From: an uncultured Eubacteriales bacterium | GTDB lineage: Bacteria > Bacillota > Clostridia > Peptostreptococcales > Anaerovoracaceae | Direction of reading: 5' to 3' | Length of the DNA stretch: 37,238 nucleotides | Assembly (NCBI GenBank): GCA_902795135.1 | Contig: CADBJW010000020.1 | Coordinates: 1-37,238 of the forward strand | In this document: positions 11,318-35,775 of the stretch, in pieces | Position numbering within the stretch: the first letter of the stretch is position 1 | Layout: each line of letters starts with the position of its first letter | Made by a program: the position numbers and the translations under genes | Notes under the pieces: generated by a model | The model's database searches: none | What the model was told of the DNA's origin: nothing | Seen by the model: the letters and a program-made list of their open reading frames with translations, nothing else

Positions 11318-11357
11318 TATATAAGGAGGATCTGACAAGGTCAACGAGGAGCGGAGC

Positions 11358-17175: not shown

Positions 17176-20100
17176 ATGAACAACTATCACTATGAGGCGT
17201 TTATATCCTACAACCACAACCCTGAAGATATCAGGATTGCCAATATGCTTCAGCAAAAGCTGGAACATTTTCGCATACCTAAAAATATAAAATCCAAAAC
17301 ATCCAAGGGAGAGATCCATCGCATTTTTCTGGATCGGGGTGAGCTTGAAGTGGCCGGCGATCTCAACGAAAAGATTATGCGCGCCATCGAAAACTCCGAA
17401 TACCTGATCGTCATCTGTTCCGAAAAAGCGAAGACCTCCCCATGGATCAAGAAGGAAATCGACTATTTTCTTAAGTTTCACGACAAAGATCAGATTCTGA
17501 CCGTTGTGACCGATGGGGAACCAGCGGATGTGGTACCGGAGATTTTGCGTTATCGGGAACGGACCGATGAGAACGGAACCCTGATCCGGGAGGAAGTGGA
17601 ACCCTTATCCTGCGACTACCGGGGAGATCTCAAGAAGGCAAACCGCAGCGAATTGCCGCGTCTCGTTTCAGCCATCATCGGCTGCCGGTATGACGACCTC
17701 GTACAACGGCAGCGGCACTACCGTATGCAAAGGCTTATGATACTGCTAGCGGTCATCGCAGCGGTGCTGATTTCGGCGCTGGGATACTTTATCTGGAGCA
17801 ATCACCAGATACGGGCAAGTCTCGAAAAATCACAAATCGAAGAGTCAAAGACGCTGGCCCTTCAGTCCGAAATGGCGCTGAACGATGGAGATCGGATCGG
17901 AGCCATTGAAGACGCACTGAAAGCGCTCCCATCTCCGAAAGAGGAACGGCCGATTACTTCAGAAGCCGTGCTCGCTCTTTCCAAGGCCCTGGATATTTAC
18001 AAACCGCCATCGGCAGAACGGGTCACAGCAGTCAGAGAATACAAAGGCTCCGAGGAATTGGGTTCCGCAACCCTCGGACAGGTTTGGCAGATCGATGCTT
18101 TTGATAATAAAGACAAAGGCAAACGATATTTCATGACCATATACACAAAGGGAAGTGTTTGGATCTGGGATGCGGATACGGGGAAACCGCTGATGCATGA
18201 CACGCTCCAGAAGATGTATAAAAATGGGGTGTCCTTTACCAATGGGCAGTTCAGTCGTGATGGGCACGCAGTTCTGATGACCGCGGACACGATTTACTAT
18301 CTGGATGTTGCACAAGGCAAATGTTTATGGAAACAAAAGAACGGTGGGACCTATAATTCGGGTATTCCAATCAATGAGTTCAATTTGATTCCTGACAACG
18401 TACTGACAACAAAGGACAATCTGTTTGTCCCGGTTCAAATCGGTGAAGGAGACGGATCCCATTGGGAAATCCAGAAGAGAGACCTGAAAACCGGCAAGGT
18501 TGAAGAAACCATCACGGTCCCTGACCAGGCCTATTATCTGTGCGCGTCGGCAGATGGCCGGCAGATTGCTTACGGCTGCTCGTCCGGCAGTGGGGATGAG
18601 GATATCGTCTACTGCATGACCGAAGACATGAAAGACCCACGGGAACTGCAGCACATCGGATATCTCACGGGACTCCACTTCAAGGGCAAGAGAAATCTGG
18701 CCATATGCGGGTTAGATCAAAGACCTGATCTGAATGACAATTCCCAGTTTTCGTTTGTGGATATGAATACGGAGGTGGGACGGTACATTCATACAGAAGC
18801 CAGTGAAAAAACCGTGGCTCTTTCTTATTGGGACGCACAGAACGCGAAGGCTCTTTGGGAACAGAAATTTACGGACGTCTTTAGCGGCACGCCAAGTGTT
18901 TATTGGGATAGCGATGACGGGTTGTTGGAAGATGGGATTCCGTGCACGGCAGGCGATAAATTGAAGCTGTTCTCTCAGGAGGGAAAACAGGAATTTGACG
19001 TTGCTTTTGGATCTCCTGTTGTAACCTATCTGAATTATAACCCCGATGCGAAACGGGTCAGTGCAGTGCTGTACGACGGTGGATACGGTCTGTACAGTAT
19101 CGACACAAATCGGGTTCAAAATGTAAGCGGGCAGTTCCACGGACCGGTGGAAGCTGCCGTTCGGGAGGGTTCGTCAGTCTTCACGATCAGTATGGATACC
19201 AGCGGCAAAGGCCTCTCACAAAGGCTTTTGGAGTATCAATACGCAGGTTCCGATAGCAGGTGGAAGGATTACGAAACGCCGATTTACGACCGTACTGCAA
19301 AGGGCGCAGTAGAGAGTCAAACAGAGGAAGTGGAACGGCTGATCATTCCATACAAAGGTTCGTTTATAGAAATCAGCAAACGGTCAAATCCGGAAAAAGA
19401 TCTTGGAGATCAGTATGGCGGTAGGCACATACTGAGAAGGGGAAGCGAAAGCGGCAGGATTCTGTGGCAAAACACCTATTTTGAAGATATGGACAGTTAC
19501 GGGCTTACCTATGCGGGCATCGATGAAGAAAAAGAATTGATGTATTTCCAGTGTCTGGACGTAACATATTTGAATATAGCAGCGATCGATCTCAAAGATG
19601 GTTCTGTGAAAACCATGCAGATTGAGGACAAGGATCTGCCGGGAATATCCACAGAAGTGGAGGGATTGAACGGGTTCCGTGATGGCAAATTGTACAAGGT
19701 GGTCAAGCGGAGCGAGAACGGAGATGATTACCAGATGATTTCCTACTTGTCCCTTCTGACGATTGACCCGCAAGAACAGAAAATCCTAGACATGGCAGAT
19801 ATCCTGAAACTGCCGGAAGGAGAATATGGGAATGATTTTGCCACGGTCAGACCGATTATGGATATAGAAAAGGAACGGCTCCTATTCTATGGAGACGGCA
19901 GCATTCATCTCTATGGATTGGATGGGAAGGAAGTCACGGTCATCAAAGACCTTGCCTATGAGCCTGCAGGTCTTGGCTTTGTAAATCCAGAGGACAAAAG
20001 CGAAGAAATTGTGGCTTTGGAGCCGCTGAGCGACAAGGTGATTCTGCACCGGTACGATGTCAGCAGCGGAGAAGAAGCCGCGCAGGTTACCATCAATGAA

Positions 20101-20361
20101 GCGGCCAATTCTTATGGGGAACCAATCTCGGTGACGCAAATGAGCGATGGGGACCTTCTTGCCGTGATCGGCAGCAAAGCTTTTGTGCTTGATGGATCGA
20201 CCTGGGAACACAAGGCAGACGTCATGGGATATAAAGGATACAATCCAAAAACCCAGCAGTTTTACCTGGGAACGGAGGAATCCGAAAACGGACACGTTCC
20301 TTACTGCTCGCTGGATGAAATGATCCGCATGGGACGCGAAGCGACGGGGCAGAAGGATTGA
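17176..20361 (+). CDS. TIR domain-transmembrane-beta-propeller protein
   Basis: This 1061-residue membrane protein begins with a TIR domain (residues about 4-175; YEAFISYNHNPEDIRIANML, IFLDRGELEVAGDLNEKIMRAIENSEYLIVICS). It keeps the WxxxE motif (W90, E94) whose Glu is catalytic in NAD-cleaving TIR domains. One transmembrane helix spans residues 185-206. A helical stretch (215-275) leads into about 780 residues of repeated beta strands with WD-like or quinoprotein-like blades (VWIWDADTGKPL, YYLDVAQGKCLWKQ, LYGLDGKE), predicted outside the cell. The layout suggests an external sensor controlling an internal TIR enzyme. It is paired with the macro-domain gene (18 bp gap). NADase activity, ligand and role are inference. 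Confidence 0.82.
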   Translation: MNNYHYEAFISYNHNPEDIRIANMLQQKLEHFRIPKNIKSKTSKGEIHRIFLDRGELEVAGDLNEKIMRAIENSEYLIVICSEKAKTSPWIKKEIDYFLKFHDKDQILTVVTDGEPADVVPEILRYRERTDENGTLIREEVEPLSCDYRGDLKKANRSELPRLVSAIIGCRYDDLVQRQRHYRMQRLMILLAVIAAVLISALGYFIWSNHQIRASLEKSQIEESKTLALQSEMALNDGDRIGAIEDALKALPSPKEERPITSEAVLALSKALDIYKPPSAERVTAVREYKGSEELGSATLGQVWQIDAFDNKDKGKRYFMTIYTKGSVWIWDADTGKPLMHDTLQKMYKNGVSFTNGQFSRDGHAVLMTADTIYYLDVAQGKCLWKQKNGGTYNSGIPINEFNLIPDNVLTTKDNLFVPVQIGEGDGSHWEIQKRDLKTGKVEETITVPDQAYYLCASADGRQIAYGCSSGSGDEDIVYCMTEDMKDPRELQHIGYLTGLHFKGKRNLAICGLDQRPDLNDNSQFSFVDMNTEVGRYIHTEASEKTVALSYWDAQNAKALWEQKFTDVFSGTPSVYWDSDDGLLEDGIPCTAGDKLKLFSQEGKQEFDVAFGSPVVTYLNYNPDAKRVSAVLYDGGYGLYSIDTNRVQNVSGQFHGPVEAAVREGSSVFTISMDTSGKGLSQRLLEYQYAGSDSRWKDYETPIYDRTAKGAVESQTEEVERLIIPYKGSFIEISKRSNPEKDLGDQYGGRHILRRGSESGRILWQNTYFEDMDSYGLTYAGIDEEKELMYFQCLDVTYLNIAAIDLKDGSVKTMQIEDKDLPGISTEVEGLNGFRDGKLYKVVKRSENGDDYQMISYLSLLTIDPQEQKILDMADILKLPEGEYGNDFATVRPIMDIEKERLLFYGDGSIHLYGLDGKEVTVIKDLAYEPAGLGFVNPEDKSEEIVALEPLSDKVILHRYDVSSGEEAAQVTINEAANSYGEPISVTQMSDGDLLAVIGSKAFVLDGSTWEHKADVMGYKGYNPKTQQFYLGTEESENGHVPYCSLDEMIRMGREATGQKD

Positions 20362-20385: not shown

Positions 20386-21591
20386 TTATAAACCGGCCTT
20401 AAGAAGCTCGATGAACTGGCGTGCAGTTCGCGGGCTTCTTCCGTTTCTGCGGATTGCATGGGCTTCTGCTCTGCGAAGCAGTTCGTCTTCGGCCATGTCG
20501 ATGTTGTATTCCTTTGCCAAAGAGCGAACGATGGACAGATATTCTTCCTTGTCCGGTTTCTGGAAGGTGATCGTGAGGCCAAAGCGTGCAGCCAGGCTCA
20601 TGGTTTCCTGCAGCGTATCATTGAGATGCAGATCGTCGTCGAAACCGGATCCAGCCATACGGTCGCTGGCTCTTTCCCGGACCAGATGACGGCGGTTGCT
20701 GGTAGCATAAATGACCGTATTTCCGGCACAACCGGAAATGCTTCCCTGCAGCGTCGCCTTAAGGGCGGAAAAGTTGTCATCGTTATCGGCAAAACTTAAA
20801 TCGTCAATAAACAATATGAACTTCAGTGGGTTGGAAGCCAGCTCTTCCATGATTTCAGGAATCTGGAACAACTGATTTTTCTTGACTTCGATGATTCGTA
20901 AGCCTTTGTCCGCATAGGCTGCGGCAACGGCTTTGATGGTGGAGCTTTTGCCGGTTCCCATGTCTCCATAGAGAAGCATATTGCTGGCGCCGGTTCCGTC
21001 AATGAGGGCCTCCGTATTGCGAATGATCAGATTCCGCTCCCGCTCATAGCCAAAGAGCTCGTCCAGTGTCTGATAATCCGGATGGGCAACGGGGGTGATC
21101 ACGCCGTCTACGACACGGAAAAAAACGTACCGGGCGAACATGCCGTATCCGAGATGGTGAATATTGCCCAGCTTGTGGGTGAATTCCATGGACAGGGAAA
21201 CAGGGCTGTTTTGCCAAACCGGCAGATGAATCTCGGAAATACTTTTGGCATTGCGCTCGTGAATGATTGCTATAATATCATCGGGAGAAATGGCTGCGAT
21301 CTCTTCTAAAATCTGCAATTCGTTTTTAACTGCATCGGCGATCAAAGGACTTTGTTCCTTACCGGATGCAACGCCTTTGACATAAAAATTGTCGTCGCGC
21401 AGCACAATTTCTTTCATATATTCGGACAAGTTGTCGGTTGTCTTGTAGAGGCTCGATACGAATGCGCTGTAATCGGACACCGAAAAACTGTCGAGGAGCG
21501 TTCGAAATGAACTGAGAACAGGGTCAGCTTTTAAGTCGCTGAAGACGGTCAGAGAATCGATTTTTGTCTTTAATTCCGTACTATTGATCAT
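20386..21591 (-). CDS. DUF815 family AAA+ ATPase
   Basis: This is a cytosolic AAA+ ATPase of the DUF815 family with 401 residues and no established function. The N-terminal 180 residues are a helical family-specific region. The ATPase core has Walker A GDMGTGKSST near residue 209, Walker B FILFIDDLSF near residue 259, sensor-1 region VIYATSNRRH and a C-terminal lid with GRSPRTARQFIELL. SD AAAGGAT precedes ATG 21591. It follows the 105-residue gene by 17 bp and shares its promoter. It converges on the TIR gene with 24 bp between and no evident terminator. Confidence 0.85.
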   Translation of the reverse strand: MINSTELKTKIDSLTVFSDLKADPVLSSFRTLLDSFSVSDYSAFVSSLYKTTDNLSEYMKEIVLRDDNFYVKGVASGKEQSPLIADAVKNELQILEEIAAISPDDIIAIIHERNAKSISEIHLPVWQNSPVSLSMEFTHKLGNIHHLGYGMFARYVFFRVVDGVITPVAHPDYQTLDELFGYERERNLIIRNTEALIDGTGASNMLLYGDMGTGKSSTIKAVAAAYADKGLRIIEVKKNQLFQIPEIMEELASNPLKFILFIDDLSFADNDDNFSALKATLQGSISGCAGNTVIYATSNRRHLVRERASDRMAGSGFDDDLHLNDTLQETMSLAARFGLTITFQKPDKEEYLSIVRSLAKEYNIDMAEDELLRRAEAHAIRRNGRSPRTARQFIELLKAGL

Positions 21592-24029: not shown

Positions 24030-24419
24030 TTATTTTCTCTTCATTTCCTTAGGTGTTACACAAGTTCCGGAAGCTCTGGCAACAACGATTGGCTCTTCCA
24101 GGAAGTCAGCAGCGGAATCGTTGATGTCTTTTCTTGATACGATGACTTTTCTTGCTTCGAAGGTCATGTGTCTTGAAGTGTTTCCGATTTTATCTATTTC
24201 GCCATAAGCTTCGATGTAGTCGCCGGCATAAGTCGGTGCCAGGAATTCTACGTTGTCATATGCGCAGAAAAGGCCTTCGTCTCCGTCGAGCTTAATGAGA
24301 AGTTCTGTAGCAACGTCTCCAAAAAGATGTACCATGTGAGCTCCGTCTACCAGTTCACCACCATAGTGTGCATCTTTTGCTGACATTCTCAATCTTAAAG
24401 TTGAAGTAATTTTTTCCAT
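24030..24419 (-). CDS. kal: 3-aminobutyryl-CoA ammonia lyase
   Basis: Kal removes ammonia from L-3-aminobutyryl-CoA to give crotonyl-CoA in lysine fermentation. The 129-residue product is a small single-domain protein of the hotdog fold. It has the typical [28 protein letters not shown] segment and a central [17 protein letters not shown] strand. The ATG at 24419 (MEKITSTL) is chosen because AAGGAGAT ends 5 bases upstream; an ATG six codons earlier lies 5' of that SD. A near-perfect sigma-54 promoter and the shared palindrome lie upstream. It is divergent from the regulator gene and coupled to the downstream PHP gene. Assignment rests on family look plus context. Confidence 0.87.
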
Positions 24420-24486
24420 TTGATATCTCCTTTTCATTTTAACCGTTCCGCCGAAGCGGATTACTAACTAACACTATTTTAATATA

Positions 24487-24515
24487 TTGCAAAAGCAATG
24501 CCAATAGTTTATTAT
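24487..24515 (+). promoter_or_regulatory. Putative sigma-A promoter of the sigma-54 activator gene
   Basis: TTGCAA (24487-24492) and TATTAT (24510-24515) are 17 bp apart. Transcription would start at about 24522, placing the palindrome at 24533-24548 in the leader where a bound regulator could block its own synthesis. The same bases overlap the opposite-strand sigma-54 promoter of kal. Confidence 0.45.
24488..24503 (-). promoter_or_regulatory. Sigma-54 (-24/-12) promoter of kal
   Basis: On the minus strand TGGCAT-N5-TTGCA (24503 to 24488) matches the RpoN consensus, with the GG and GC doublets 10 bp apart. The start is predicted near 24477, giving a leader of about 58 nt to the kal ATG. Confidence 0.85.
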
Positions 24516-24532: not shown

Positions 24533-24548
24533 GAACCGAAAACGGTTC
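24533..24548. promoter_or_regulatory. Palindromic activator site GAACCG-N4-CGGTTC, upstream of kal and the regulator
   Basis: This perfect 6+4+6 palindrome has centre AAAA. It is about 64 bp upstream of the predicted kal start, suited to enhancer binding, and about 17 bp before the regulator ATG, suited to autoregulation. The same motif recurs upstream of kdd. Confidence 0.72.
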
Positions 24549-24564: not shown

Positions 24565-26634
24565 ATGAACAGTTATGGACTCGAGCGGGTCATCGCTCCA
24601 AAACAGGTTTTCCCGGCTTCCGCCTGGGAATTGGATAACAGCAGCGCACTCAAATCCGGAGAAATTCGGGTCGGCTTGAGGAAGGTACACGTGGAAGGCA
24701 CCAGCTTCAAACAGATCTGTCAGGAAGCTGCAAACGACGAGGATCTGATCAGGGAAAAGATCAAAGACATCGTCATACGAAGGGGGAAACTCCACAATCC
24801 GGTGACGGATACAGGCGGGCTGTTTTACGGTGTCATTGAGGAGATTGCAAGAGATTACGATAATTCAAAAGGCCTGAAAGTAGGGGATGAGGTCATTTGT
24901 AACTCATCGCTGGCCGGGGTGCCTTTGTACATCAACAGTATCACGTCCATTGACGAGAATTACCCGCAGTTCGATGCCGAGGGCTATGCCATCTGTTTGC
25001 CGAGGGTTCCGGTGATTAAAAAACCGGACAACATGCCCATCGACCTGCTCATGTTTGTCCTGAACGAATCCGGGACCATATACAAGGTTGGAAAAGAGGC
25101 GGCCGGCAAGAAGCGGTTTGCGGTCATTGGCAACAATATGCTCATGAATCTGATCTATGGATATGCGATTCGAAACGCGGCAGGGCCGGATGCGGAAATC
25201 TACTGCGTATTCGACAGAAATACAGAAGTTATGCTCAAAGGAGCGGCCTACGAAGAAATATTCCGACAGGTGTTCACACAGGTTTCCTATCACAATCTGA
25301 TGAAACCCGTTGCGTGTCTCAGGAGTTTCAGCGGATACGAAAGTATGGATATGGTCGTCAACTGTTCCGACATTCCGGGATCGGAGACGGTGAGTGTCAC
25401 GGCAACCAGGTCCGGCGGAACCGTTGTATTCGCAAACTTTATCAGCAACTACAATATGGCTCTGTATGTCACCGAAAGCATCTCAAGAGACATACGCATC
25501 ACCGCCGCGGAGGGTTATCTCGAAAAGTATGATGAGTACGACTTTGATATCGTGAAAGGCGTCGCTCCTTATGTGGAAGCATCTCTCGTAAGCCGGAATC
25601 GGCGCAAAGGCTCCAGCTCAGCAACGGAGAAAGCGGCCTTTGATCAGTACAATCATTACGACATATCCATTGCAGAAGACCTGGTTGCCGTAAGCGGAAA
25701 GATGCTGTCGGTTCTTGATGAAATCATGAGCGTTTCCCGGTACGATTGCAACGTACTCATTACGGGAGAGACCGGTGTCGGTAAGGAAAAGGTGGCGAAT
25801 ATCATTCAGAAAAACAGCGCGAGAAAGATGCAACCATTTGTTAAGATCAACTGTGCTTCGATACCGCCAAACCTGATGGAATCCGAGTTCTTCGGCTACG
25901 AACGGGGAGCTTTTACCGGAGCCGATGCCAAAGGCAAGCGCGGATATTTTGAGGTTGCCGAAGGGGGCATCATTTTTCTGGATGAAGTGGGCGAATTGCC
26001 ACTGGACATTCAGGCAAAATTGTTGCGGGTCATCCAGGATGGAGAGTTCATGCGCGTTGGCGGGACCAGTACGGTCAAAACGAATGTCCGGATTATCTCA
26101 GCCACCAATCGCAATCTGGAAGAACAGGTACAGGAAAAGACTTTTCGGCGGGATCTGTACTACAGACTCAACGTGTTTCCGATCAACGTTCCGCCGCTGG
26201 ATGAGCGAAAAGAGGACATTCCGCCGCTCATTGATAACTTTATCCGCAAATACAATGACAAGTTTGGCGTGACCAAATACATTGACGAAGATGCGAAAGA
26301 GTACATGATGGGAATCAGCTGGCCGGGGAATATCCGAGAGCTGGAGAACGTGATCCAGCGCCTGATGATCGCCAGCGCAGGGGATACGATCACGTTGCTG
26401 GATGTTATGAAAGAACTTGGCGGCGAGTTTATGGACTCGGCAGAGGTCAGCAAGCAGATTCAGCGCGCCGATGAAGTAGACAATCTGGACCTTACCAGAA
26501 TGGTTGAATCCTTTGAAAAAAGGATCATTCAAAAGGCTTGTGAAAAGTACGGATCCACGCGGAAAACAGCAAAAGCCATAGGGATTTCCCAGACCCAGCT
26601 CGTTCGAAAAAAGAGCAAGTATGGAATCAAATGA
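24565..26634 (+). CDS. Sigma-54-dependent activator with a Kdd-like pseudoenzyme sensor domain
   Basis: This is the probable regulator of lysine fermentation. Residues 1-345 align along their length with Kdd encoded downstream (YGLERVIAPKQVFP against YGTHRVISPKGVLP; LKVGDEVI against LKVGDKIA). The nucleotide-binding loop of Kdd (VIGGGGKSG) is replaced by VIGNNMLMN, so this half is probably a non-catalytic ligand sensor. Residues 375-610 are an AAA+ sigma-54 activation domain with Walker A GETGVGKE (401-408), GAFTGA (448-453) and Walker B FLDE. Residues 664-686 form a Fis-type HTH (STRKTAKAIGISQTQLVRKK). No response-regulator or PAS domain is seen. It sits between its two probable targets. Confidence 0.9.
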   Translation: MNSYGLERVIAPKQVFPASAWELDNSSALKSGEIRVGLRKVHVEGTSFKQICQEAANDEDLIREKIKDIVIRRGKLHNPVTDTGGLFYGVIEEIARDYDNSKGLKVGDEVICNSSLAGVPLYINSITSIDENYPQFDAEGYAICLPRVPVIKKPDNMPIDLLMFVLNESGTIYKVGKEAAGKKRFAVIGNNMLMNLIYGYAIRNAAGPDAEIYCVFDRNTEVMLKGAAYEEIFRQVFTQVSYHNLMKPVACLRSFSGYESMDMVVNCSDIPGSETVSVTATRSGGTVVFANFISNYNMALYVTESISRDIRITAAEGYLEKYDEYDFDIVKGVAPYVEASLVSRNRRKGSSSATEKAAFDQYNHYDISIAEDLVAVSGKMLSVLDEIMSVSRYDCNVLITGETGVGKEKVANIIQKNSARKMQPFVKINCASIPPNLMESEFFGYERGAFTGADAKGKRGYFEVAEGGIIFLDEVGELPLDIQAKLLRVIQDGEFMRVGGTSTVKTNVRIISATNRNLEEQVQEKTFRRDLYYRLNVFPINVPPLDERKEDIPPLIDNFIRKYNDKFGVTKYIDEDAKEYMMGISWPGNIRELENVIQRLMIASAGDTITLLDVMKELGGEFMDSAEVSKQIQRADEVDNLDLTRMVESFEKRIIQKACEKYGSTRKTAKAIGISQTQLVRKKSKYGIK

Positions 26635-26660: not shown

Positions 26661-26712
26661 TGCGAACCGAAATCGGTTCGCATTTTTCATGTCACAGAAC
26701 CGATTTCGATTC
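26661..26712. promoter_or_regulatory. Two activator sites (GAACCG-N4-CGGTTC) upstream of the kdd operon
   Basis: Site 1 (26664-26679, centre AAAT) is perfect and extends to 10-bp arms over 26661-26682. Site 2 (26697-26712, centre ATTT) has one mismatch in the right arm (CGATTC). Centres are 33 bp apart, about three helical turns, and lie roughly 219 and 186 bp before the predicted sigma-54 start. This is a standard enhancer arrangement. Site 1 is followed by TTTTT and may also end transcription of the regulator gene 27 bp upstream. Confidence 0.75.
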
Positions 26713-26863
26713 AAAACTAGTTACGTTGGCTCAAAACACAGCATGAAAGTCGATGATTCAGGTCAAACTTGTAAGGGGGCTATAAGAGCTTTGAGAAATG
26801 AAAAGTTGGCGTTACTGTGTTTCAGCCCATTCTGCCCGCGACGGTACGTCATTGTTAATGTTT

Positions 26864-26879
26864 TGGCACAGTAATTGCT
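26864..26879 (+). promoter_or_regulatory. Sigma-54 (-24/-12) promoter of the kdd-kam-ctf operon
   Basis: TGGCAC-N5-TTGCT is an exact match to the RpoN consensus with correct GG/GC spacing. Transcription should start near 26890, about 80 nt before kdd. It lies in the 336-bp gap that also holds the enhancer sites. No small gene was accepted there. Confidence 0.93.
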
Positions 26880-26970: not shown

Positions 26971-28032
26971 ATGAAAAAAGGAAATCCATACGGAACACAC
27001 AGAGTTATTTCACCGAAGGGCGTACTGCCACAGCCAGCAGACGTTGTTGATAACACAATGGAAATCTATGACAACGAGATCCTGATCGACGTTAAGACAC
27101 TGAACATCGACTCCGCTTCATTCACAGAAATCTGCAAGCAGGTTCTGAACAAGAAGCCGGCTGAAATCGAAACCCAGGAAGAAAAAGACAAGGTTGCACA
27201 GTGCATGAAGGACATCGTTGCAAAAGCTGGAAAGCACAAAAACCCTTGGACTGGTTCCGGCGGAATGCTGATTGGTACAGTTAAGGAAATCGGACCTGAA
27301 TGGAAGGGCGACCTGAAGGTTGGCGATAAGATCGCTACTCTGGTTTCACTGTCACTGACTCCACTGGTAATCGAAGAGATCCACGAAATGAGACCTGCAA
27401 TCGACCAGGTTGACATTACAGGACAGGCTATCCTGTTCCAGAGCGGTATCTATGCAAAGCTTCCTGATGACATGCCAGAAGGTCTTGCACTTTCAGCACT
27501 GGACGTTGCCGGAGCTCCTGCACAGACAGGCAAACTGGTTCAGCAGGGACAGAAAGTTCTCGTAATCGGCGGCGGCGGCAAATCCGGTCTTCTCTGCCTC
27601 TACGAAGCAAAGAAGAGAGCTGGCGTAACAGGTCTGGTTGTATGCGCAGCAGGTTCACAGAAATCAGAAGACAGAGCAAGAGCGCTGGATCTGGCAGACG
27701 AATACTTCCACATGGATGCATCTGATGCAGTTGGAATGTATGAAAAAGCTATGGAACTGACAAACGGCGAACTGTATGACGTAGTAATCAACTGCGTATC
27801 CATCGAAAACACTGAAATGGGTTCCATCCTCAGCTGTAAGGACGATGGTACAGTTTACTTCTTCTCAATGGCTACAAGCTTCACAAAGGCAGCTCTGGGT
27901 GCAGAAGGCGTTGGCAAGGACGTAAACATGATCGTTGGAAACGGCTACACTAAGGGTCACGCTGAAATTACTCTTCAGGAGCTGAGAGAACACGAAGGTC
28001 TCAGAAAGCTCTTCGAAGAAATGTATGCATAA
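26971..28032 (+). CDS. kdd: L-erythro-3,5-diaminohexanoate dehydrogenase
   Basis: Kdd oxidatively deaminates L-erythro-3,5-diaminohexanoate to 3-keto-5-aminohexanoate with NAD+, the third step of clostridial lysine fermentation. The 353 residues match the family length. It has a GroES/MDR-like N-terminal half and a Rossmann domain with VLVIGGGGKSGLLCLYEA near residue 193. A strong SD (TAGGAGG) lies 11 bases before the ATG. It is first in an eight-gene operon under a sigma-54 promoter. Codon choice (AGA for Arg, CTG for Leu) is more biased than in upstream genes, which suggests high expression. The adjacent regulator carries a degenerate copy of this protein. Confidence 0.93.
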   Translation: MKKGNPYGTHRVISPKGVLPQPADVVDNTMEIYDNEILIDVKTLNIDSASFTEICKQVLNKKPAEIETQEEKDKVAQCMKDIVAKAGKHKNPWTGSGGMLIGTVKEIGPEWKGDLKVGDKIATLVSLSLTPLVIEEIHEMRPAIDQVDITGQAILFQSGIYAKLPDDMPEGLALSALDVAGAPAQTGKLVQQGQKVLVIGGGGKSGLLCLYEAKKRAGVTGLVVCAAGSQKSEDRARALDLADEYFHMDASDAVGMYEKAMELTNGELYDVVINCVSIENTEMGSILSCKDDGTVYFFSMATSFTKAALGAEGVGKDVNMIVGNGYTKGHAEITLQELREHEGLRKLFEEMYA

Positions 28033-28091: not shown

Positions 28092-29351
28092 ATGGCTATT
28101 AGAAATTGGAAAGACATTCCTCTTTTCAAGGATGTCACAGAAGAACAGTGGAACGACTGGCATTGGCAGGTAGCAAATAGACTAGACAGCGTTGAAAAAA
28201 TCAAGCAGGTCGTTAATCTGACACCAGAAGAAGAAGCGGATATCGCCAAGGTAATGGACGGATTCAGAGTAGGAATCACTCCTTACTACGCTTCATTGAT
28301 GGATCCGGATGATCCGCACTGCCCAGTAAGAATGCAGGCCGTTCCTACGCTTGCCGAAACACACAGAGGCGAAGCAGACATGTTAGACCCACTTCACGAA
28401 GATGAGGATTCACCGGCTCCTGGACTGACTCACAGATATCCAGACAGAGTTCTGTTCCTGATTACGGACCAGTGCTCCATGTACTGCAGACACTGCACAA
28501 GAAGAAGACTGGCAGGGGAAACTGACGGAGCAAGATCCAGAGAAGATATCGACGCTTGCATCGATTACATTAAGAGAACTCCAGTTGTTAGAGACGTACT
28601 GCTTTCAGGCGGAGACGCACTCTGCGTTGAGACGGACGTTCTCGAGTACATCATCAGCGAACTGAGAAAGATCGATCACGTTGAAATCGTAAGAATCGGA
28701 TCCAGAACACCAGTTGTTATGCCTCAGAGAATCACCGATGAACTCTGCGACATGCTGAAGAAGTATCACCCAATCTGGCTGAATACACACTTCAACCATC
28801 CAAAAGAATGGACACCGGAATCAGCAGAAGCTTGCAGAAAGCTTGCTGACGCTGGTATTCCTCTCGGAAACCAGTCCGTACTGCTCAGAGGCATCAACGA
28901 TGACGTACATGTTATGAGAAATCTGGTTCAGCTTTGCTGCAAGAACAGAGTTCGTCCGTACTACATTTACCAGTGCGACCTCTCACTTGGCATCGAACAC
29001 TTCAGAACACCTGTATCCAAGGGTATCGAACTGATCGAAGGTCTGAGAGGACACACTTCAGGATATGCAGTTCCTACATTTGTAATTGACGCTCCTGGTG
29101 GTGGTGGAAAGACTCCGGTAATGCCGCAGTACGTGATCTCACAGACACCTGACAAGGTTATCCTCAGAAACTACGAAGGCGTTATCACAACTTACACAGA
29201 ACCAACCATGCTTCCGAAACTGCAGTGCAGCTACGAAAACTGCAAGAACGTTGAAGATTACCACTATGAAGGTGTTGCAGGTCTGGCACAGGGCGAAAGA
29301 ATGTCCATGGAACCAGCTCACCTGCTGAGACACGAAAGAAACAAGAAATAA
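28092..29351 (+). CDS. kamA: Lysine 2,3-aminomutase (radical SAM, PLP)
   Basis: KamA interconverts L-lysine and L-beta-lysine, the first step of the pathway. It is a radical SAM enzyme with cysteines in CSMYCRHC (C128, C132, C135). The PLP-binding lysine is K340 in PGGGGKTPV. The N-terminal region has NWKDIPLFKDVTEEQWNDWHWQ, typical of the family, and the length of 419 residues is normal. SD AAAGGAG precedes the ATG. It lies between kdd and kamB. The product beta-lysine feeds KamDE. No acetyltransferase that would divert beta-lysine to the osmolyte acetyl-beta-lysine is nearby. Confidence 0.96.
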   Translation: MAIRNWKDIPLFKDVTEEQWNDWHWQVANRLDSVEKIKQVVNLTPEEEADIAKVMDGFRVGITPYYASLMDPDDPHCPVRMQAVPTLAETHRGEADMLDPLHEDEDSPAPGLTHRYPDRVLFLITDQCSMYCRHCTRRRLAGETDGARSREDIDACIDYIKRTPVVRDVLLSGGDALCVETDVLEYIISELRKIDHVEIVRIGSRTPVVMPQRITDELCDMLKKYHPIWLNTHFNHPKEWTPESAEACRKLADAGIPLGNQSVLLRGINDDVHVMRNLVQLCCKNRVRPYYIYQCDLSLGIEHFRTPVSKGIELIEGLRGHTSGYAVPTFVIDAPGGGGKTPVMPQYVISQTPDKVILRNYEGVITTYTEPTMLPKLQCSYENCKNVEDYHYEGVAGLAQGERMSMEPAHLLRHERNKK

Positions 29352-29355
29352 TTAA

Positions 29356-30369
29356 ATGTACCTATTAGACGAATTATCAGAGAAATACAAGAGAATATCC
29401 ATTGTAGGCATGGCAAAGAACGCCGGCAAAACTACAGCCCTGAACTATCTCATCGAAGAAGCCATGGATGAGGGAATCACCTTGGGAATTACATCCACGG
29501 GCAGAGATGGCGAAGGAACCGATGTTGTCACAGGTACAGACAAACCTCGTGTATTTCTTGATACGGACACTATCGTATCGGTGCCCAAACAGCTCTATGA
29601 GATGGCAGATGCCGGACTCGAGATCGTCAAGATGACGGACTACGGTTCATCCCTGGGACAGATTATGCTCTGCAGAGTCGTCGACAGCGGATATGTTCAG
29701 GTAGCCGGGCCGGTAATCAATGCCCAGCACGTAGAGATGTGTGAAGAAATGCTTCGGTTAGGCGCAGATCTGGTGCTTATAGATGGTGCGATAGACCGGA
29801 AATCTATCGCAGCGCCGGGAACGTCTGATGCGATCATCCTGTCCACAGGAGCGGTTTTATCGAGAAAAATGAGTAAGGTGGTAGAGGAAACGGCGCATAC
29901 CGTGAACCTCTATCGCCTGCCAAATCTCGAAGATGGACGGGAAAGAGATTTATTGACCGAAGAGAATATCGAACAAATCTCCCTCATCAGAGATGGGCAG
30001 CTTGTGACATTGGATAGAAGTACCGGTCTTGGTGCAGGCAAGTTCCTGGATTCCAAGATCGATGACAAAGTCACACACGTATTTGTTCCGGGGGCTTTCA
30101 CCCACAGCATTGTAGCGGACATCAATCCGAAGAAACTGAGAAACATCACATTCGTGCTGAAAGATCCGACGAAAATCTTTATTGGCACCATGATGTGGAA
30201 TCAGTTCCGGAAAAGAGGGCTTAACATCAAAGTGCTGGAGAACATTAACGTAGCGGCGATCACGGTCAATCCAACATCGCCGGGAGGATACGCGTTCGAT
30301 CATGAAGAACTTGTAAAAGCCATGCAGGAAGCGATTCCTGACATCCCTGTTATTGATGTGCGAATGTAG
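29356..30369 (+). CDS. kamB: KamB-type P-loop NTPase of the lysine aminomutase operon
   Basis: This 337-residue protein of unknown function is conserved in lysine fermentation operons between kamA and kamC. Walker A is GMAKNAGKTT (residues 18-27) and a Walker B-like DLVLIDGAID lies near residue 138. The C-terminal third (FVPGAFTHSIVADINPKKLRNITFVLKDPTKIFIG) is unassigned. It starts 4 bp after kamA without a clear SD, so translation may be coupled. A role in aminomutase maturation, cofactor loading or repair with KamC is an inference from constant co-location. Confidence 0.8.
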   Translation: MYLLDELSEKYKRISIVGMAKNAGKTTALNYLIEEAMDEGITLGITSTGRDGEGTDVVTGTDKPRVFLDTDTIVSVPKQLYEMADAGLEIVKMTDYGSSLGQIMLCRVVDSGYVQVAGPVINAQHVEMCEEMLRLGADLVLIDGAIDRKSIAAPGTSDAIILSTGAVLSRKMSKVVEETAHTVNLYRLPNLEDGRERDLLTEENIEQISLIRDGQLVTLDRSTGLGAGKFLDSKIDDKVTHVFVPGAFTHSIVADINPKKLRNITFVLKDPTKIFIGTMMWNQFRKRGLNIKVLENINVAAITVNPTSPGGYAFDHEELVKAMQEAIPDIPVIDVRM

Positions 30370-30378
30370 GAGAACACA

Positions 30379-32016
30379 ATGTCGACAGCAGTAAAACGAC
30401 TGGCAAATGTTAAGACAAGAAGAGAAACAGGGTTGGACTATGTGATTTCTGCCATGAATCTGCTTACGCCTTTTGGAGCGAAGCAGATCAAAGAGCAAAA
30501 GCCGTTTTTCCCGGGCCAGGAGGGGGCCCTGGAAGCAGAGCTTGACAGAGTTGGGCAGATGGTTGAAACGGCAGAACAGAATCACAAAGAAATCGGCATT
30601 CTGCAAGAAACCTTCATGATGACGAAGGATAATACATTCTCCATCGAGAGAAGCGGAAGTTCCGTATTATCCGTCGTCGAGATTTTTGAACTGAAAAACC
30701 TGCTTTTGCTGATGGATAAAATCAGAAGCCTAAGCACCCGAATCAGTCTGCCGGAAGAATTCGTTCCGGAAGACATCACGGAGCTTTTGGACGTTCTTGA
30801 TCCAGGCGGCGACAGGTTGAACACATTTTACATCTATGATTCTTTCTCGGAAAAACTCGCACAGCTGCGAAGAGAAAAGAAGAACATGGAACGTGAAATA
30901 CGAAAAGGCCAAAAGGCTTTACGTTCAGAAATCAGAGAAAAACACGGTCTGTCGCTGACACCGAAATTCGATATCACCATATCGAAGAGCGACAGCGCCA
31001 CCATAAAAATGATTGAAGAGATTTCCGAACTGGCAAAATCGGATGAGGATTATATGTCGGTCACCTTCACACTCGTACCCGATGCGGAAGTTCAGGCGCA
31101 CATGAAAGAGCTGGACGAAATCACCGCAGACATCGAAGAGGAAGAGCTGAATGTGAGGGGTAGACTATCAAAAGAAATCCACAAACATTCCAAAAGGCTT
31201 CTCGACAACTGCGAGAAGATCGGCAGACTTGATATCATTCTCGCAAAGGCTTTGTATGCGAAAGCACATAACTGTACGAAGCCTGAAATCGTGAAAGAAC
31301 ATGTCTTGGAATTCGAGGACGGAAGACACCTGCAGGTCGAAGAAATCATTAAGAAAAAGGGCGGAGAATATTGCCCGGTCAGCATATCGCTCAAGGATGG
31401 TGTCACATGCATCACCGGAGCGAATATGGGAGGCAAGACCATTTCCCTCAAACTGACGGGAATGGTTGCGATCTTAGCCCAGTATGGATACTTCGTACCA
31501 TGCAAAAGCGCTCGCGTAGGGCTTTCCAATTTCATGCAGATCCTGATTGGTGACAGTCAGTCAATCGAACGAGGGCTGTCCAGTTTCGGCAGTGAAATGG
31601 AAGAACTCAAAGAGATCATCGACAACAGCAAGGATCGATCGCTCTTATTGATCGATGAAATCGCCAGCGGGACGAACCCGGTAGAGGGACTGGCGTTGAC
31701 AAAGAGCATCGTTGACTATCTGAAAGGCAAAACCTACATCTCGCTGATCACGACCCATTTTGAAACGGTTACAGCAGACAAAGATGTGGTAAATATGCAA
31801 GTCACCGGCCTCGCCAATGTGGATTTCGAGAAACTGAACAGGGAAATCAGATACGCAAATCGGCGCGAACGAATCAACATCATACAGAAGTATATGGATT
31901 ACCGGTTGACCCGCGTAGATGATGCGGCTGAGATCCCTAAAGATGCCTTAAACATTGCAAAAATGCTGGGCATCAGTAGCAGCATTATAGATAAGGCAAA
32001 AGAATATATTGTATAA
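30379..32016 (+). CDS. kamC: KamC, MutS-like ATPase of the lysine aminomutase operon
   Basis: KamC carries a C-terminal MutS-type ATPase: Walker A ITGANMGGKTISLK near residues 345-357, a SFGSEMEELKEI signature, Walker B LLLIDEIASGTNPVEG near residue 423, and the H-motif TTHFETV. The N-terminal 300 residues are helical with a long coiled-coil-like stretch (SEKLAQLRREKKNMEREIRKGQKALR). No mismatch-recognition domain is seen. The operon context argues against DNA repair and for a role in aminomutase or cobalamin cofactor handling. At 545 residues it is close to the KamC length I know for lysine-fermenting Clostridium. Function is not established. Confidence 0.82.
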   Translation: MSTAVKRLANVKTRRETGLDYVISAMNLLTPFGAKQIKEQKPFFPGQEGALEAELDRVGQMVETAEQNHKEIGILQETFMMTKDNTFSIERSGSSVLSVVEIFELKNLLLLMDKIRSLSTRISLPEEFVPEDITELLDVLDPGGDRLNTFYIYDSFSEKLAQLRREKKNMEREIRKGQKALRSEIREKHGLSLTPKFDITISKSDSATIKMIEEISELAKSDEDYMSVTFTLVPDAEVQAHMKELDEITADIEEEELNVRGRLSKEIHKHSKRLLDNCEKIGRLDIILAKALYAKAHNCTKPEIVKEHVLEFEDGRHLQVEEIIKKKGGEYCPVSISLKDGVTCITGANMGGKTISLKLTGMVAILAQYGYFVPCKSARVGLSNFMQILIGDSQSIERGLSSFGSEMEELKEIIDNSKDRSLLLIDEIASGTNPVEGLALTKSIVDYLKGKTYISLITTHFETVTADKDVVNMQVTGLANVDFEKLNREIRYANRRERINIIQKYMDYRLTRVDDAAEIPKDALNIAKMLGISSSIIDKAKEYIV

Positions 32017-32033: not shown

Positions 32034-33590
32034 ATGAAAAGCAAACTGAACCTGGACCCTAAAAAGGTTGATCATGCTCGGCAAAGCGCAAGAAAAATTG
32101 CTGAGAGCATGCAGGAATTCATCGACAGACATACGACCGTAAGTACTGAGAGAACCGTTCTCAGGCTTTTGGGCGTAGACGGCGTCGATGAGGTCGATAC
32201 ACCACTACCTAACGTAGTAATTGACCAGATTCTTGATGCGGGTGGACTGCCAAGAGGCGTTGCTTACTGGATTGGTAATGCGATGATTCAAACTGGCAAG
32301 GAGCCTCAGGAAATCGCCGAAGAAATGGCTGCAGGAAATCTGGATGTTACGAAGCTGCCGCTGGCTTCCAAGGAAGAAGCAGAAGCTAAGATCATGCCGA
32401 AAGTACACGAAGCCTTAAAGACGATCCGGGCACAGACCGAAAAGAGAAATGAATATCTGGCTACGATAGGCGAAGGAAGAAGACCGTATCTGTATGTCAT
32501 CGTTGCAACAGGAAACATCTATGAAGACGTTGTGCAGGCACAGGCGGCGGCAAGACAGGGTGCTGATATCATTGCAGTTATCAGAACGACAGCCCAGTCA
32601 CTGCTGGACTATGTACCTTACGGACCTACCACAGAAGGTTTTGGTGGAACATACGCCACCCAGGAAAACTTCAGGATCATGAGAAAAGCATTGGACGAAG
32701 TAGGAGAAGAAGTCGGCAGATACATTCGGCTTTGTAACTACTCATCCGGAATGTGCATGCCTGAGATCGCGGCGATGGGTGCCATCGAAAGACTGGACGT
32801 TATGCTGAACGACGCTCTGTACGGTATTCTGTTCAGAGACATCAATATGCAGAGAACACTGGTTGACCAGTTCTTCTCAAGAGTTATCATCGGTTACTGC
32901 GATATCATCTTTAACTCAGGTGAAGACAACTATCTGACAACAGATGATGCTTATGAAAATGCCCACACTGTTCTGGCTTCCCAGCTGATCAACGAACAGT
33001 TCGCAGTACTGGCAAACGTAAAAGAAGAGCAGATGGGTCTCGGTCACGCATTCGAAATGGATCCGGATATTGAGAACGGATTCCTTTATGAGTTGGCACA
33101 GGCAATTATGGCAAGAGAAATCTTCCCGAACGCACCTCTGAAGTACATGCCTCCAACAAAGTACATGACAGGCAACATCTTCAAAGGCAATGTTCAGGAT
33201 GCACTGTTCAACATGATCGCAATCTGGTCAGGACAGTCCCTGCAGCTCTTAGGTATGCTGACAGAAGCGATTCACACACCGCACATGCATGACAGATATC
33301 TCTCAATCGAAAATGCGCAGTACATTTTCAACAATATGAGAGACATCGGAAGTGAAGTATATTACAAGGAAGGCGGAATCATTCAGTCAAGAGCACAGCT
33401 CGTTCTCGACAAAGCGGACAAGCTGCTTGAAGAAATCGTTGAAGAAGGTCTGTTCTCCACCATTGAACAGGGTAAGTTCGGTGGCGTTAAGAGACCGAGA
33501 GACGGGGGCAAAGGCCTTGCAGGTGTTTGCGTCAAGGATGATGAATACTTCAATCCGTTCATTCCACTCATGTTAGGAGGTGCAGAATAA
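32034..33590 (+). CDS. kamD: Lysine 5,6-aminomutase alpha subunit
   Basis: KamD is the large subunit of the adenosylcobalamin- and PLP-dependent enzyme that moves the terminal amino group of beta-lysine (or D-lysine), giving 3,5-diaminohexanoate. At 518 residues it matches known alpha subunits. Typical stretches are LNLDPKKVDHARQSARKIAESMQEFIDRHTT, YVPYGPTTEGFGGTYATQENF and YKEGGIIQSRAQLVLDKADKLL. SD AAAGGAG precedes the ATG. Its stop overlaps the kamE start by one base (TAATG), which favours equal subunit output. Confidence 0.95.
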   Translation: MKSKLNLDPKKVDHARQSARKIAESMQEFIDRHTTVSTERTVLRLLGVDGVDEVDTPLPNVVIDQILDAGGLPRGVAYWIGNAMIQTGKEPQEIAEEMAAGNLDVTKLPLASKEEAEAKIMPKVHEALKTIRAQTEKRNEYLATIGEGRRPYLYVIVATGNIYEDVVQAQAAARQGADIIAVIRTTAQSLLDYVPYGPTTEGFGGTYATQENFRIMRKALDEVGEEVGRYIRLCNYSSGMCMPEIAAMGAIERLDVMLNDALYGILFRDINMQRTLVDQFFSRVIIGYCDIIFNSGEDNYLTTDDAYENAHTVLASQLINEQFAVLANVKEEQMGLGHAFEMDPDIENGFLYELAQAIMAREIFPNAPLKYMPPTKYMTGNIFKGNVQDALFNMIAIWSGQSLQLLGMLTEAIHTPHMHDRYLSIENAQYIFNNMRDIGSEVYYKEGGIIQSRAQLVLDKADKLLEEIVEEGLFSTIEQGKFGGVKRPRDGGKGLAGVCVKDDEYFNPFIPLMLGGAE

Positions 33591-34405: not shown

Positions 34406-35131
34406 ATGTTCAATAAAATCTTAACCGCTGATGAAGCAGTTGCAGGAGTAGAAGACGGCATGACCATAATGGTTGGAGGATTTCTGGGAACAGGTTCACC
34501 TGAAGTTCTTATGGATGCGCTCGTAAGAAAAGGCGTTAAGCACCTTACGGTAATCGGCAACGACGGCGGACTGGCAGAAGGCCAGCCTGCAGGAGAATTT
34601 GGCGGCAAGACACCTAGAGGCATCGGAAAACTCTTGGAGCACCACATGGTCGACCACGTTATCATGTCACACGTAGGTGTAAACCCTCGCCTGAACGAGC
34701 AGTTCGCTGATGGCAGCCTGAAATATACGCTGGTACCACAGGGTACTCTGGCAGAAAAAATCAGAGCAGCAGCATATGGACTCGGTGGAGTTCTTACACC
34801 GGTAGGTTTGGGAACACCAATGGAAACAGATCTTGATGAACTCGGCAGAAAGAAAGAAGTCGTAGAAATCGATGGCAAAAAGTGGCTCTTTGAAAGACCT
34901 TTGCACGCTGACTATTCATTCATCAGAGCAAGCATGGCTGATAAGTTTGGCAACTATATGTGCTCAAAGGCAACAAGAAACTTTAACATCGTAATGGCCG
35001 GAGCATCCGATCATACCGTTATTGCAGCAGAAAAACTGGTCGAAGTAGGTTCAGTAGATCCTGATATCTGGCAGGTAGCTGGCGTACTGGTTGAGTCAAT
35101 CGTGGAAGGAGAACCAAAATGGCAGATTTAA
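34406..35131 (+). CDS. CoA-transferase alpha subunit (butyryl-CoA:acetoacetate type)
   Basis: This is the alpha subunit of a family I CoA-transferase (AtoD/CtfA-like), with 241 residues. The N-terminal signature is TIMVGGFLGTGSPEVLMDALV, followed by the GNDGG segment. In this pathway the enzyme passes CoA from butyryl-CoA to acetoacetate, releasing butyrate and regenerating acetoacetyl-CoA. SD GAAAGG precedes the ATG. The last 13 bp overlap the beta subunit gene. Specificity is inferred from operon position, and other short-chain acyl donors are possible. Confidence 0.9.
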   Translation: MFNKILTADEAVAGVEDGMTIMVGGFLGTGSPEVLMDALVRKGVKHLTVIGNDGGLAEGQPAGEFGGKTPRGIGKLLEHHMVDHVIMSHVGVNPRLNEQFADGSLKYTLVPQGTLAEKIRAAAYGLGGVLTPVGLGTPMETDLDELGRKKEVVEIDGKKWLFERPLHADYSFIRASMADKFGNYMCSKATRNFNIVMAGASDHTVIAAEKLVEVGSVDPDIWQVAGVLVESIVEGEPKWQI

Positions 35132-35775
35132 AAGCAAGAATCGCAAAGAGATGTGCGAAACACTTCGAAGCTGGAGATTTCATCAATCTCGGCATCGGCT
35201 TACCAACCATGGTAGCTGACTATCTTCCTGAAGATGTTATCATTACTTGCCACTCCGAAAACGGATTCGCAGGAATCGACGTTCTGGCAGATCAGGACAC
35301 ACTGGATGTAAACATCATCAACTCAGGCGGACAGTATGTAACAGCTCTTCCGAGAGCAAAGTTCTTTGACACAGCCGAAAGCTTTGGCCTGGTCAGAGGC
35401 GGACACGTTAAGGCTACCGTACTGGGCGCTATGGAAGTTGCAGAAAACGGAGACCTGGCGAACTGGATCGTTCCTGGCAAGAAGGTTGCCGGAATGGGCG
35501 GCGCTATGGATCTTTGCGTAGGATGTCCGGAAGTAATCATCACCATGCTGCACACCCAGAAGGGCAATCACAAGATCAAGAAGGAATGTACCCTTCCGCT
35601 GACAGCAGAAAAGTGCGTAACAAACATCATTACGGAAATGGCTGTTATGAAAGTTACCGACGAAGGCATCGTTGTTACAGAACTGCATCCGGATTACACG
35701 AAGGAAGAAGTTCAGGCAGCAACAGGCGTTGACCTTATTTGGGCTGACGACCTGAAGCCTTACGATGAAGACTAA
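35119..35775 (+). CDS. CoA-transferase beta subunit (butyryl-CoA:acetoacetate type)
   Basis: This is the beta subunit (AtoA/CtfB-like), with 218 residues. It holds the catalytic glutamate in CHSENGFAG near residue 47, after the conserved FINLGIGLPTMVADYL. Later come VRGGHVKATVLGAMEVAENGDLANW and GMGGAMDL, typical of the family. SD AAGGAG lies inside the alpha subunit gene and the two overlap by 13 bp. It is the last gene of the operon and is followed by a terminator. Confidence 0.92.
   Translation: MADLKARIAKRCAKHFEAGDFINLGIGLPTMVADYLPEDVIITCHSENGFAGIDVLADQDTLDVNIINSGGQYVTALPRAKFFDTAESFGLVRGGHVKATVLGAMEVAENGDLANWIVPGKKVAGMGGAMDLCVGCPEVIITMLHTQKGNHKIKKECTLPLTAEKCVTNIITEMAVMKVTDEGIVVTELHPDYTKEEVQAATGVDLIWADDLKPYDED

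Follow-up and report, generated by a model that had tools for sequence, protein, structure and literature searches.

The window, i.e. the whole stretch of DNA that was analysed, comprises 37,238 nucleotides from an uncultured Eubacteriales bacterium (assembly GCA_902795135.1, contig CADBJW010000020.1, positions 1-37,238 of the forward strand). The source genome assembly contains 2,076,014 bases and is 91% complete. On the forward strand of the window, kdd for L-erythro-3,5-diaminohexanoate dehydrogenase (26971-28032; NCBIfam model NF052381, 245.7 bits, cut-off 200) is followed by kamA for lysine 2,3-aminomutase (28092-29351; TIGR03820), kamB for the reactivase subunit of lysine 5,6-aminomutase (29356-30369; NF052386), kamC for the reactivase ATPase (30379-32016; NF052383), and kamD and kamE for the alpha and beta subunits of lysine 5,6-aminomutase (32034-33590, NF052384; 33590-34360, NF052385), and all five kam genes scored above the cut-offs of their models. 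Two genes for CoA-transferase subunits are located downstream of kamE on the same strand (34406-35775; PF01144 matched twice). The kal gene for 3-aminobutyryl-CoA ammonia lyase (24030-24437, reverse strand; NF052388, 187.8 bits, cut-off 160) is divergent, and kce, which accounts for the remaining pathway step, was found on a different contig (G000:C12:305-1126), its product sharing 78% identity with the protein of a relative. Elsewhere, the window encodes a protein of 1061 amino acids (17176-20361, forward strand) that starts with a TIR domain (PF08937, E 5.7e-11; PF13676) and shows weak matches of beta-propeller type after it, and next to it, on the reverse strand, a DUF815 AAA protein (20386-21591; PF05673, E 1.8e-82).

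The regulator gene (24565-26634, forward strand, 689 codons) lies between kal and kdd. An earlier note on this DNA had placed kdd 340 bp downstream; the adjacency was correct, but the distance between the regulator stop and the kdd start is 336 bp. The open reading frame, BLASTP, Pfam and NCBIfam identified the product as a sigma-54 activator (bEBP) with a Kdd-type sensor domain at residues 1 to about 345 (24565-25599, forward strand). The C-terminal half is that of an ordinary sigma-54 activator and has the features of an enhancer-binding protein: an AAA+ sigma-54 interaction domain (residues 375-540, 25687-26184; PF00158, Sigma54_activat, E 2.7e-68) with an intact Walker A motif (GETGVGKE from residue 401) and a Walker B motif (IIFLDEVG), a GAFTGA loop for the contact with sigma-54 (residues 448-453, 25906-25923), and a C-terminal HTH domain (residues 642-689, 26488-26631; PF18024, HTH_50, E 1e-12). 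The AAA+ motifs were thus as described in the earlier note, but its "Fis-type HTH" had to be refined, because the general Fis model HTH_8 yielded 17.7, under its cut-off of 22, and HTH_50, which we take to be the TyrR-type Pfam HTH model, exceeded its own cut-off. Members of the TyrR/PhhR family have N-terminal ACT and PAS domains. Neither of these Pfam domains was found in the regulator, which has the Kdd-type domain at this place. The source genome contains rpoN, the sigma-54 gene, and encodes 12 strong sigma-54 activators; besides kdd itself, the sensor domain matched at one place only.

Both flanking transcription units are preceded by sigma-54 promoter motifs. A perfect -24/-12 promoter of kdd-kam, TTGGCACAGTAATTGCT, is present at 26863-26879 on the forward strand, and a -24/-12 box facing kal, TTGGCATTGCTTTTGCA, at 24488-24504 on the reverse strand. 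The latter deviates at one consensus position from the pattern that was applied first, and it is conserved in relatives. The stricter pattern TTGGCAYNNNNNTTGCW has six matches in the whole genome assembly, and two of them are at this locus. For the regulator gene itself, a weak -35/-10 match, near the chance level, was detected (TTGCAA-17-TATTAT at 24487-24515). No lysine riboswitch or other Rfam RNA was found in the window at the gathering threshold.

In addition, the locus contains palindromes that are putative operators. Exact copies of GAACCG-N4-CGGTTC are located between kal and the regulator gene (GAACCGAAAACGGTTC, 24533-24548) and upstream of kdd (GAACCGAAATCGGTTC, 26664-26679), and these are the only two exact copies in the 2,076,014-base assembly. 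A third copy with one mismatch, GAACCGATTTCGATTC, is present at 26697-26712, 33 bp from the copy at 26664-26679. Further one-mismatch palindromes occur elsewhere in the genome; the one on contig 3 of G000 is located within a coding frame and was regarded as fortuitous. In GAFTGA-intact relatives, palindromes with up to 2 mismatches in 12 positions were counted, and at least one was found in 52 of 56 kdd gaps, with a total of 76 sites versus a mean of 0.3 in shuffled sequences, as well as in 38 of 52 kal gaps. Where two palindromes share a kdd gap, their spacing is 31-33 bp in most cases, with 29 bp in L074 and 41 bp in L038. The distance from the operator centre to the -12 element is variable in kdd gaps, with a median of 138 bp; in kal gaps it is 50 bp (median of 32 sites), which is unusually close for sigma-54 activation. 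As the palindromes are conserved together with the HTH domain of the regulator, we infer that the regulator binds them. The possibility that the palindrome just terminates transcription of the regulator gene was considered and rejected, because the scan revealed no forward-strand terminator at this site and the presence of copies in front of kal favours an operator; a short T run comes after the copy at 26664, which could have a double role as terminator and operator. The operator centre is about 18 bp past the start that is predicted from the weak -35/-10 match of the regulator gene, and likewise in several relatives. This location just downstream of the weak promoter match suggests that the regulator represses itself. 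The exact promoter and operator sites also support the earlier proposal that the sigma-54 activator controls its own neighbouring operon, and, judged from the sequences, the regulator very probably switches on the lysine-fermentation genes.

The Kdd-type sensor domain

The similarity of the first about 345 residues to Kdd, with the motifs in the same order, had been claimed before and was confirmed. In BLASTP, the window sensor and the neighbouring Kdd were colinear and identical at 94 of 341 positions (28%; 131 bits, E 8e-38; residues 2-324). A search of PDB chains with the single sequence led to 3,5-DAHDH entries at E 7.4e-24. A profile search had been set beforehand as the test of the Kdd similarity, and it was significant: the sensor profile, aligned over its positions 3-344 of 353, matched 3,5-DAHDH entries with an E value of 8.4e-65, although its calibration is modest because it was built on 7 sensor domains. 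The sole further row up to E 1 was a ketose reductase (E 0.24), and thus all significant matches were 3,5-DAHDH. The comparison of the profiles of 7 sensor domains and 9 enzymes with hhalign resulted in a probability score of 100 and an E value of 2.5e-72 over 340 columns. The family model NF052381 aligned with residues 5-171 and yielded 126.6 bits for the domain alone and 125 for the whole protein, below the cut-off of 200, and the glycines of the dinucleotide loop are missing as well. The GGGGKSG of Kdd is aligned with GNNMLMN of the sensor (residues 189-195; 25129-25149, forward strand), in agreement with the replacement that had been noticed at the outset.

For a phylogenetic analysis, 42 sensor domains and 34 enzymes were combined to a set of 76 rows, from which six near-duplicate enzymes had been removed beforehand. 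In the unrooted tree, a single branch with a support of 100/100 parts the 42 sensors from the 34 enzymes; it was present in 100% of 200 bootstrap trees, and the Kdd of the window is placed deep among the enzymes. Because all sensors are on one side of this branch, the sensor appears to have arisen once and long ago. A recent local duplication of kdd is ruled out by the tree, and the earlier view of the sensor as a degenerate copy of the operon's own enzyme is contradicted: according to the tree, it is an old lineage that is related to the adjacent kdd without having been copied from it. The direction from enzyme to sensor is not proven by an unrooted tree. The four sensors nearest to the enzymes (L176, L179, L037, and L038) still have enzyme-like loops (GAGGKIG, GANGKIG, GANGKVG, and GASSKIG, respectively).

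The conservation of individual residues shows what the sensors have lost and kept. The glycines of the dinucleotide motif at positions 190, 192, and 195 are retained in none of 102 classical sensors, and the claimed loss of the canonical loop is supported. The enzyme signature FFSMATSF is also replaced in sensors, and with both changes together NAD-dependent catalysis by the sensor domain is unlikely. Of 95 enzyme-invariant residues, 37 are retained in the window sensor, 37-50 in classical sensors, 43-47 in the paralogues, and 63-78 in the four sensors near the enzymes. At the same time, R8, E33, K75, E274, and E304 are retained in 102 of 102 classical sensors, which suggests that selection acts on the fold and on some of the cleft, and 13 columns, including those of K75 and E304, are invariant in all 76 rows of sensors and enzymes. 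Position 168 is a glutamate in 41 of 42 sensors and a valine in 34 of 34 enzymes, making E168 a candidate for a sensor-specific ligand contact.

Most likely, this ancient non-catalytic relative of Kdd would bind a pathway intermediate in the former active-site cleft, and L-erythro-3,5-diaminohexanoate, 3-keto-5-aminohexanoate, or a close analogue are the candidate ligands. Alternatively, the altered site might bind NAD(P)(H) or another nucleotide, and the regulator would then report the redox state. Several residues speak for this rather unlikely alternative. E304 of the window sensor, present in 42 of 42 sensors of the 76-row set, corresponds to E310 of the solved 3,5-DAHDH, for which a section of PMC9902596 describes a bond to the amide of NADPH. 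All 102 classical sensors also retain D217, with which the second strand ends, and in view of these two residues the sensor may bind a cofactor. Asparagine instead of glycine is found at position 190 in 94 of 102 and at position 195 in 91 of 102 classical sensors, so the loop is conserved and has not simply decayed, and GxxGK-type loops occur in L176, L179, and L037. However, all three motif glycines are absent from all 102 classical sensors, and the strict linkage to lysine-pathway genes fits better to a pathway-specific signal.

With a pathway intermediate as the ligand, the following course of events can be proposed. Of the GAACCG-N4-CGGTTC operators, the regulator would occupy the pair that precedes kdd as well as the solitary copy that separates kal from the regulator gene. 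Upon ligand binding, the direction of the response being presumed, the AAA+ ring would touch sigma-54 via GAFTGA, and the promoters of kdd-kam and, divergently, of kal would be opened. Via the operator downstream of the weak -35/-10 match, the regulator would also repress its own gene. On balance, we regard it as probable that the protein is a dedicated activator of lysine fermentation that has a non-catalytic Kdd relative as the sensor, responds to a pathway ligand, and acts with sigma-54 at kdd-kam and kal. The cell thus seems to use a retired enzyme relative to sense the availability of lysine.

Relatives and paralogues of the regulator

A scan of genome contigs yielded 276 relatives, and the best 80 of these 276 were analysed. 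Both halves are present in one reading frame in 78 of the 80, and the other two end at a contig edge. The kdd gene is located 3' of the regulator gene in 70 of the 80; nine of the other ten end at a contig edge, and L124 is a true exception that lacks kdd within about 7 kb downstream. A divergent kal was found in 75 of the 80. Named carriers include Emergencia timonensis, Clostridium aminobutyricum, Aminicella lysinilytica, Sinanaerobacter chloroacetimidivorans, Anaerovorax sp., and [Eubacterium] infirmum. A search for this architecture beside kam/kdd operons of other Clostridia had been suggested in the earlier note, and the build indeed recurs beside kal, kdd, and kam. At the family level, the sensor matched in 166 of 296 genomes, counting any match without separating activators. 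Class-wide, any match was found in 31 of 391 genomes, seven of which have an activator-length frame, and phylum-wide in 82 of 398 genomes, with an activator-length frame in at least two (G000, G787) among the matches listed. A further 51 kdd loci were considered; among the 48 that were suitable for the test, a gene for a sigma-54 activator immediately precedes kdd in 24, and the box was present in all 24 cases. Outside these relatives, the kdd operon is usually controlled by another solution. Examples are L041 and L040, for which longer stretches revealed PAS-type activators before kdd, with PAS_4 above the cut-off in L041 and below it in L040.

Paralogues of the regulator adjoin different genes. 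In five of them (L032, L173, L174, L178, and L180) a perfect box precedes a gene of the Na+/H+ antiporter family, and in L179 a gene for a TRAP solute-binding protein. L171 is located before CoA-transferase, thiolase-like, and aminotransferase genes, L177 and L181 are beside permease-like genes, and L172 and L175 have no clear target; these last five all lack a perfect box, and one genome contains both L171 and L172 as additional activators of the Kdd-sensor type. From the differing neighbours we infer that the sensor family may read several related amino compounds.

The paralogues also bear on the improbable alternative that the sensor has kept the subunit contacts of Kdd and forms mixed oligomers with the real enzyme, which would hold the activator off until the level of substrate or enzyme shifts. 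The proximity of the regulator gene to kdd in most relatives and the retention of the whole fold, as judged by sequence profiles, are in general agreement with such a mechanism. However, sensor and neighbouring enzyme diverged very long ago according to the tree, and paralogues adjoin transporter genes with no kdd in the stretch examined.

In L176, a perfect box precedes kdd, and genes for an amino-acid permease, kce, and kal follow. The sensor half of this activator (L176:8776-10839) passes the Kdd cut-off (221.5 versus 200 bits), and therefore such regulators can be mistaken for enzymes in annotation. Its dinucleotide-type loop is kept, and the protein might be enzyme and regulator at once.

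Loss of GAFTGA and the promoters of kdd

Some relatives have lost the GAFTGA motif, and the presence of the -24/-12 box was compared between the groups. In a first set of 85 loci, from which two repeat contigs were left out, GAFTGA was intact in 67 and lost in 14, and the remaining 4 loci are truncated. The box was found at 63 of 64 intact loci with a usable gap versus none of the 14 lost loci. The exception was L072, of which 63 bp were measured, and the box is visible in a wider stretch. For kdd gaps alone, the numbers were 61 of 61 versus 0 of 13, with 0.001 expected from shuffled sequences. As a held-out set, 40 further regions were collected, and 28 were analysed after the removal of 12 contigs that had already been used. 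Again the box was present at 17 of 17 intact loci. Of the lost loci, 8 had a kdd gap and all 8 lacked the box, and the remaining 3 had no such gap. In the combined tree of 104 rows, GAFTGA is lost in 24. The 98 rows with a measurable gap comprise 77 intact rows with the box and 21 lost rows without it, and not one is discordant. Six changes of GAFTGA and box are required in the best tree, and three are forced by well-supported branches; sign tests on independent pairs had three starred pairs (p 0.25) and cannot reach significance with this number.

The loci that lost GAFTGA and the box have sigma-70-like promoters instead (L034, L036, L090, L095, L097, L098, L104, L117, L122, L126, L127, L129, L130, and the held-out loci L198-L226). 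A -35/-10 promoter with a score of at least 12.5 precedes kdd in 12 of 12 lost versus 7 of 56 intact loci, with about 0.08 in shuffled sequences. In the held-out set, 7 of 8 lost loci reached this score, and the eighth (L198) had 12.0. Operator positions were counted from the start site that is predicted by the -35/-10 promoter alone. The operator centres of all 12 lost loci fall into the ranges -90 to -92 and/or -121 to -123, for L036 only when 3 mismatches were allowed. Of the 8 held-out loci, 7 had a centre between -88 and -92 or at -122/-123; in L207, no operator was detected with 2 or fewer mismatches. Both L207 and L036 count against a strict register. The HTH domains of GAFTGA-lost relatives are nearly identical to those of intact ones. 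In four of them (L034, L095, L097, and L098) the Walker B aspartate is replaced by asparagine (IFLNEI type), and ATP hydrolysis may thus be impaired. A loss of rpoN was rejected as the cause of the GAFTGA loss, because G097, G232, and G390 have lost GAFTGA and all contain rpoN; the gene was found in 11 of 12 genomes tested.

The Kdd-type sensor is retained in every GAFTGA-lost relative that was examined in full (24 rows). This retention and the sites that are conserved in 102 of 102 classical sensors argue for a function and make it very improbable that, as the low identity to the enzyme and the loss of the cofactor loop might suggest, the sensor is a structural relic in an activator that is constitutive or governed by its own level only.

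Some GAFTGA-intact relatives have two kdd copies. In the first set, from which three near-copies were left out, all nine (L093 from Emergencia timonensis, positions 10064-11600, and L033, L083, L086, L092, L094, L096, L109, and L112) have a sigma-54 box at the first kdd and a sigma-70 promoter with an operator at -90/-91 at the second, the operator of L109 being found only at 3 mismatches. In the held-out set, a sigma-70 promoter and an operator near -91 at the second kdd were found in one of seven cases (L195). In L206, L211, and L214 the gap before the second kdd is short and has neither promoter nor operator, and L228, L229, and L231 have a promoter match and no operator. The pooled result was 10 of 16. 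In view of the single case among the held-out loci, the two-promoter arrangement characterises a single group of genera.

Taken together, these patterns suggest that the activator family may have repeatedly switched the polymerase. GAFTGA-lost members would use the same operators at the same genes with sigma-70 promoters in a fixed register. In Emergencia and close relatives of it, a single regulator with GAFTGA would serve both a sigma-54 promoter at the first kdd and a sigma-70 promoter at the second. For this interpretation we see the chances as evenly balanced. A passage from sigma-54 to sigma-70 has been proposed for the transition from PhhR to TyrR, and a section of PMC1173090 names the bridging state as an open experiment. 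If the interpretation is true, the two-promoter regulator of Emergencia would represent this bridging state.

Comparison with known systems

No characterised regulator with a Kdd-type sensor was found in the open-access literature searched, and the statement of the earlier note that no such build was known is in line with this result. In its main text, a survey of sigma-54 regulons of Clostridiales (PMC6615313) lists other sensor domains, and the word lysine does not appear in the portion considered. New here are the old sensor lineage, the visible sites of the regulon, the recurrence beside kal, kdd, and kam together with paralogues elsewhere, and the joint loss of GAFTGA and the box. The regulator would be a control point for the formation of butyrate from lysine by gut bacteria. 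Its relatives form a natural series from enzyme-like loops (L176, L179, L037) to fully altered ones and further to regulators detached from sigma-54, and this series makes two processes testable, the conversion of an enzyme into a sensor and the passage from sigma-54 to sigma-70 without loss of the regulon. To our knowledge, and if our reading is true, this is the first sigma-54 activator with a sensor that descended from a dehydrogenase of the controlled pathway.

The 3,5-DAHDH structures 7dl0, 7dl1, 7dl3, and 7dl7 appear, as judged by sequence, to share their fold with the whole sensor domain, but the sensor differs from the enzyme in having 37 of 95 enzyme-invariant residues and no canonical dinucleotide loop. 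A descent of regulators from enzymes is also described, in part of PMC10512348, for QutR, a repressor of quinate genes in fungi that originated from the AROM enzyme. In contrast to the regulator studied here, QutR represses by acting on a Zn-cluster activator, has neither AAA+ domain nor sigma-54, and stems from a different enzyme.

The PAS-type activator of L041, and probably that of L040, is found at the same place before the same target operon with a sigma-54 box before kdd, but these proteins have PAS sensors (below the cut-off in L040) and not a Kdd-type domain. More generally, the regulator resembles the Group 2 bEBPs of the DmpR, AcoR, and PrdR type, which have a ligand-type N-terminal domain, AAA+ with GAFTGA, a C-terminal HTH, and a sigma-54 promoter (sections of PMC7175178). 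It differs in that its sensor is a whole dehydrogenase-type domain, whereas the table in PMC7175178 has RR/PRD, PAS/V4R/ACT, GAF, or none. Like TyrR/PhhR, as covered by parts of PMC1173090, PMC4894688, and PMC6375630, the lineage mixes GAFTGA-intact members with GAFTGA-lost ones at sigma-70 promoters. TyrR, however, senses via other domains, and here the change appears to have taken place within one operon, with the targets kept and the promoter altered in step.
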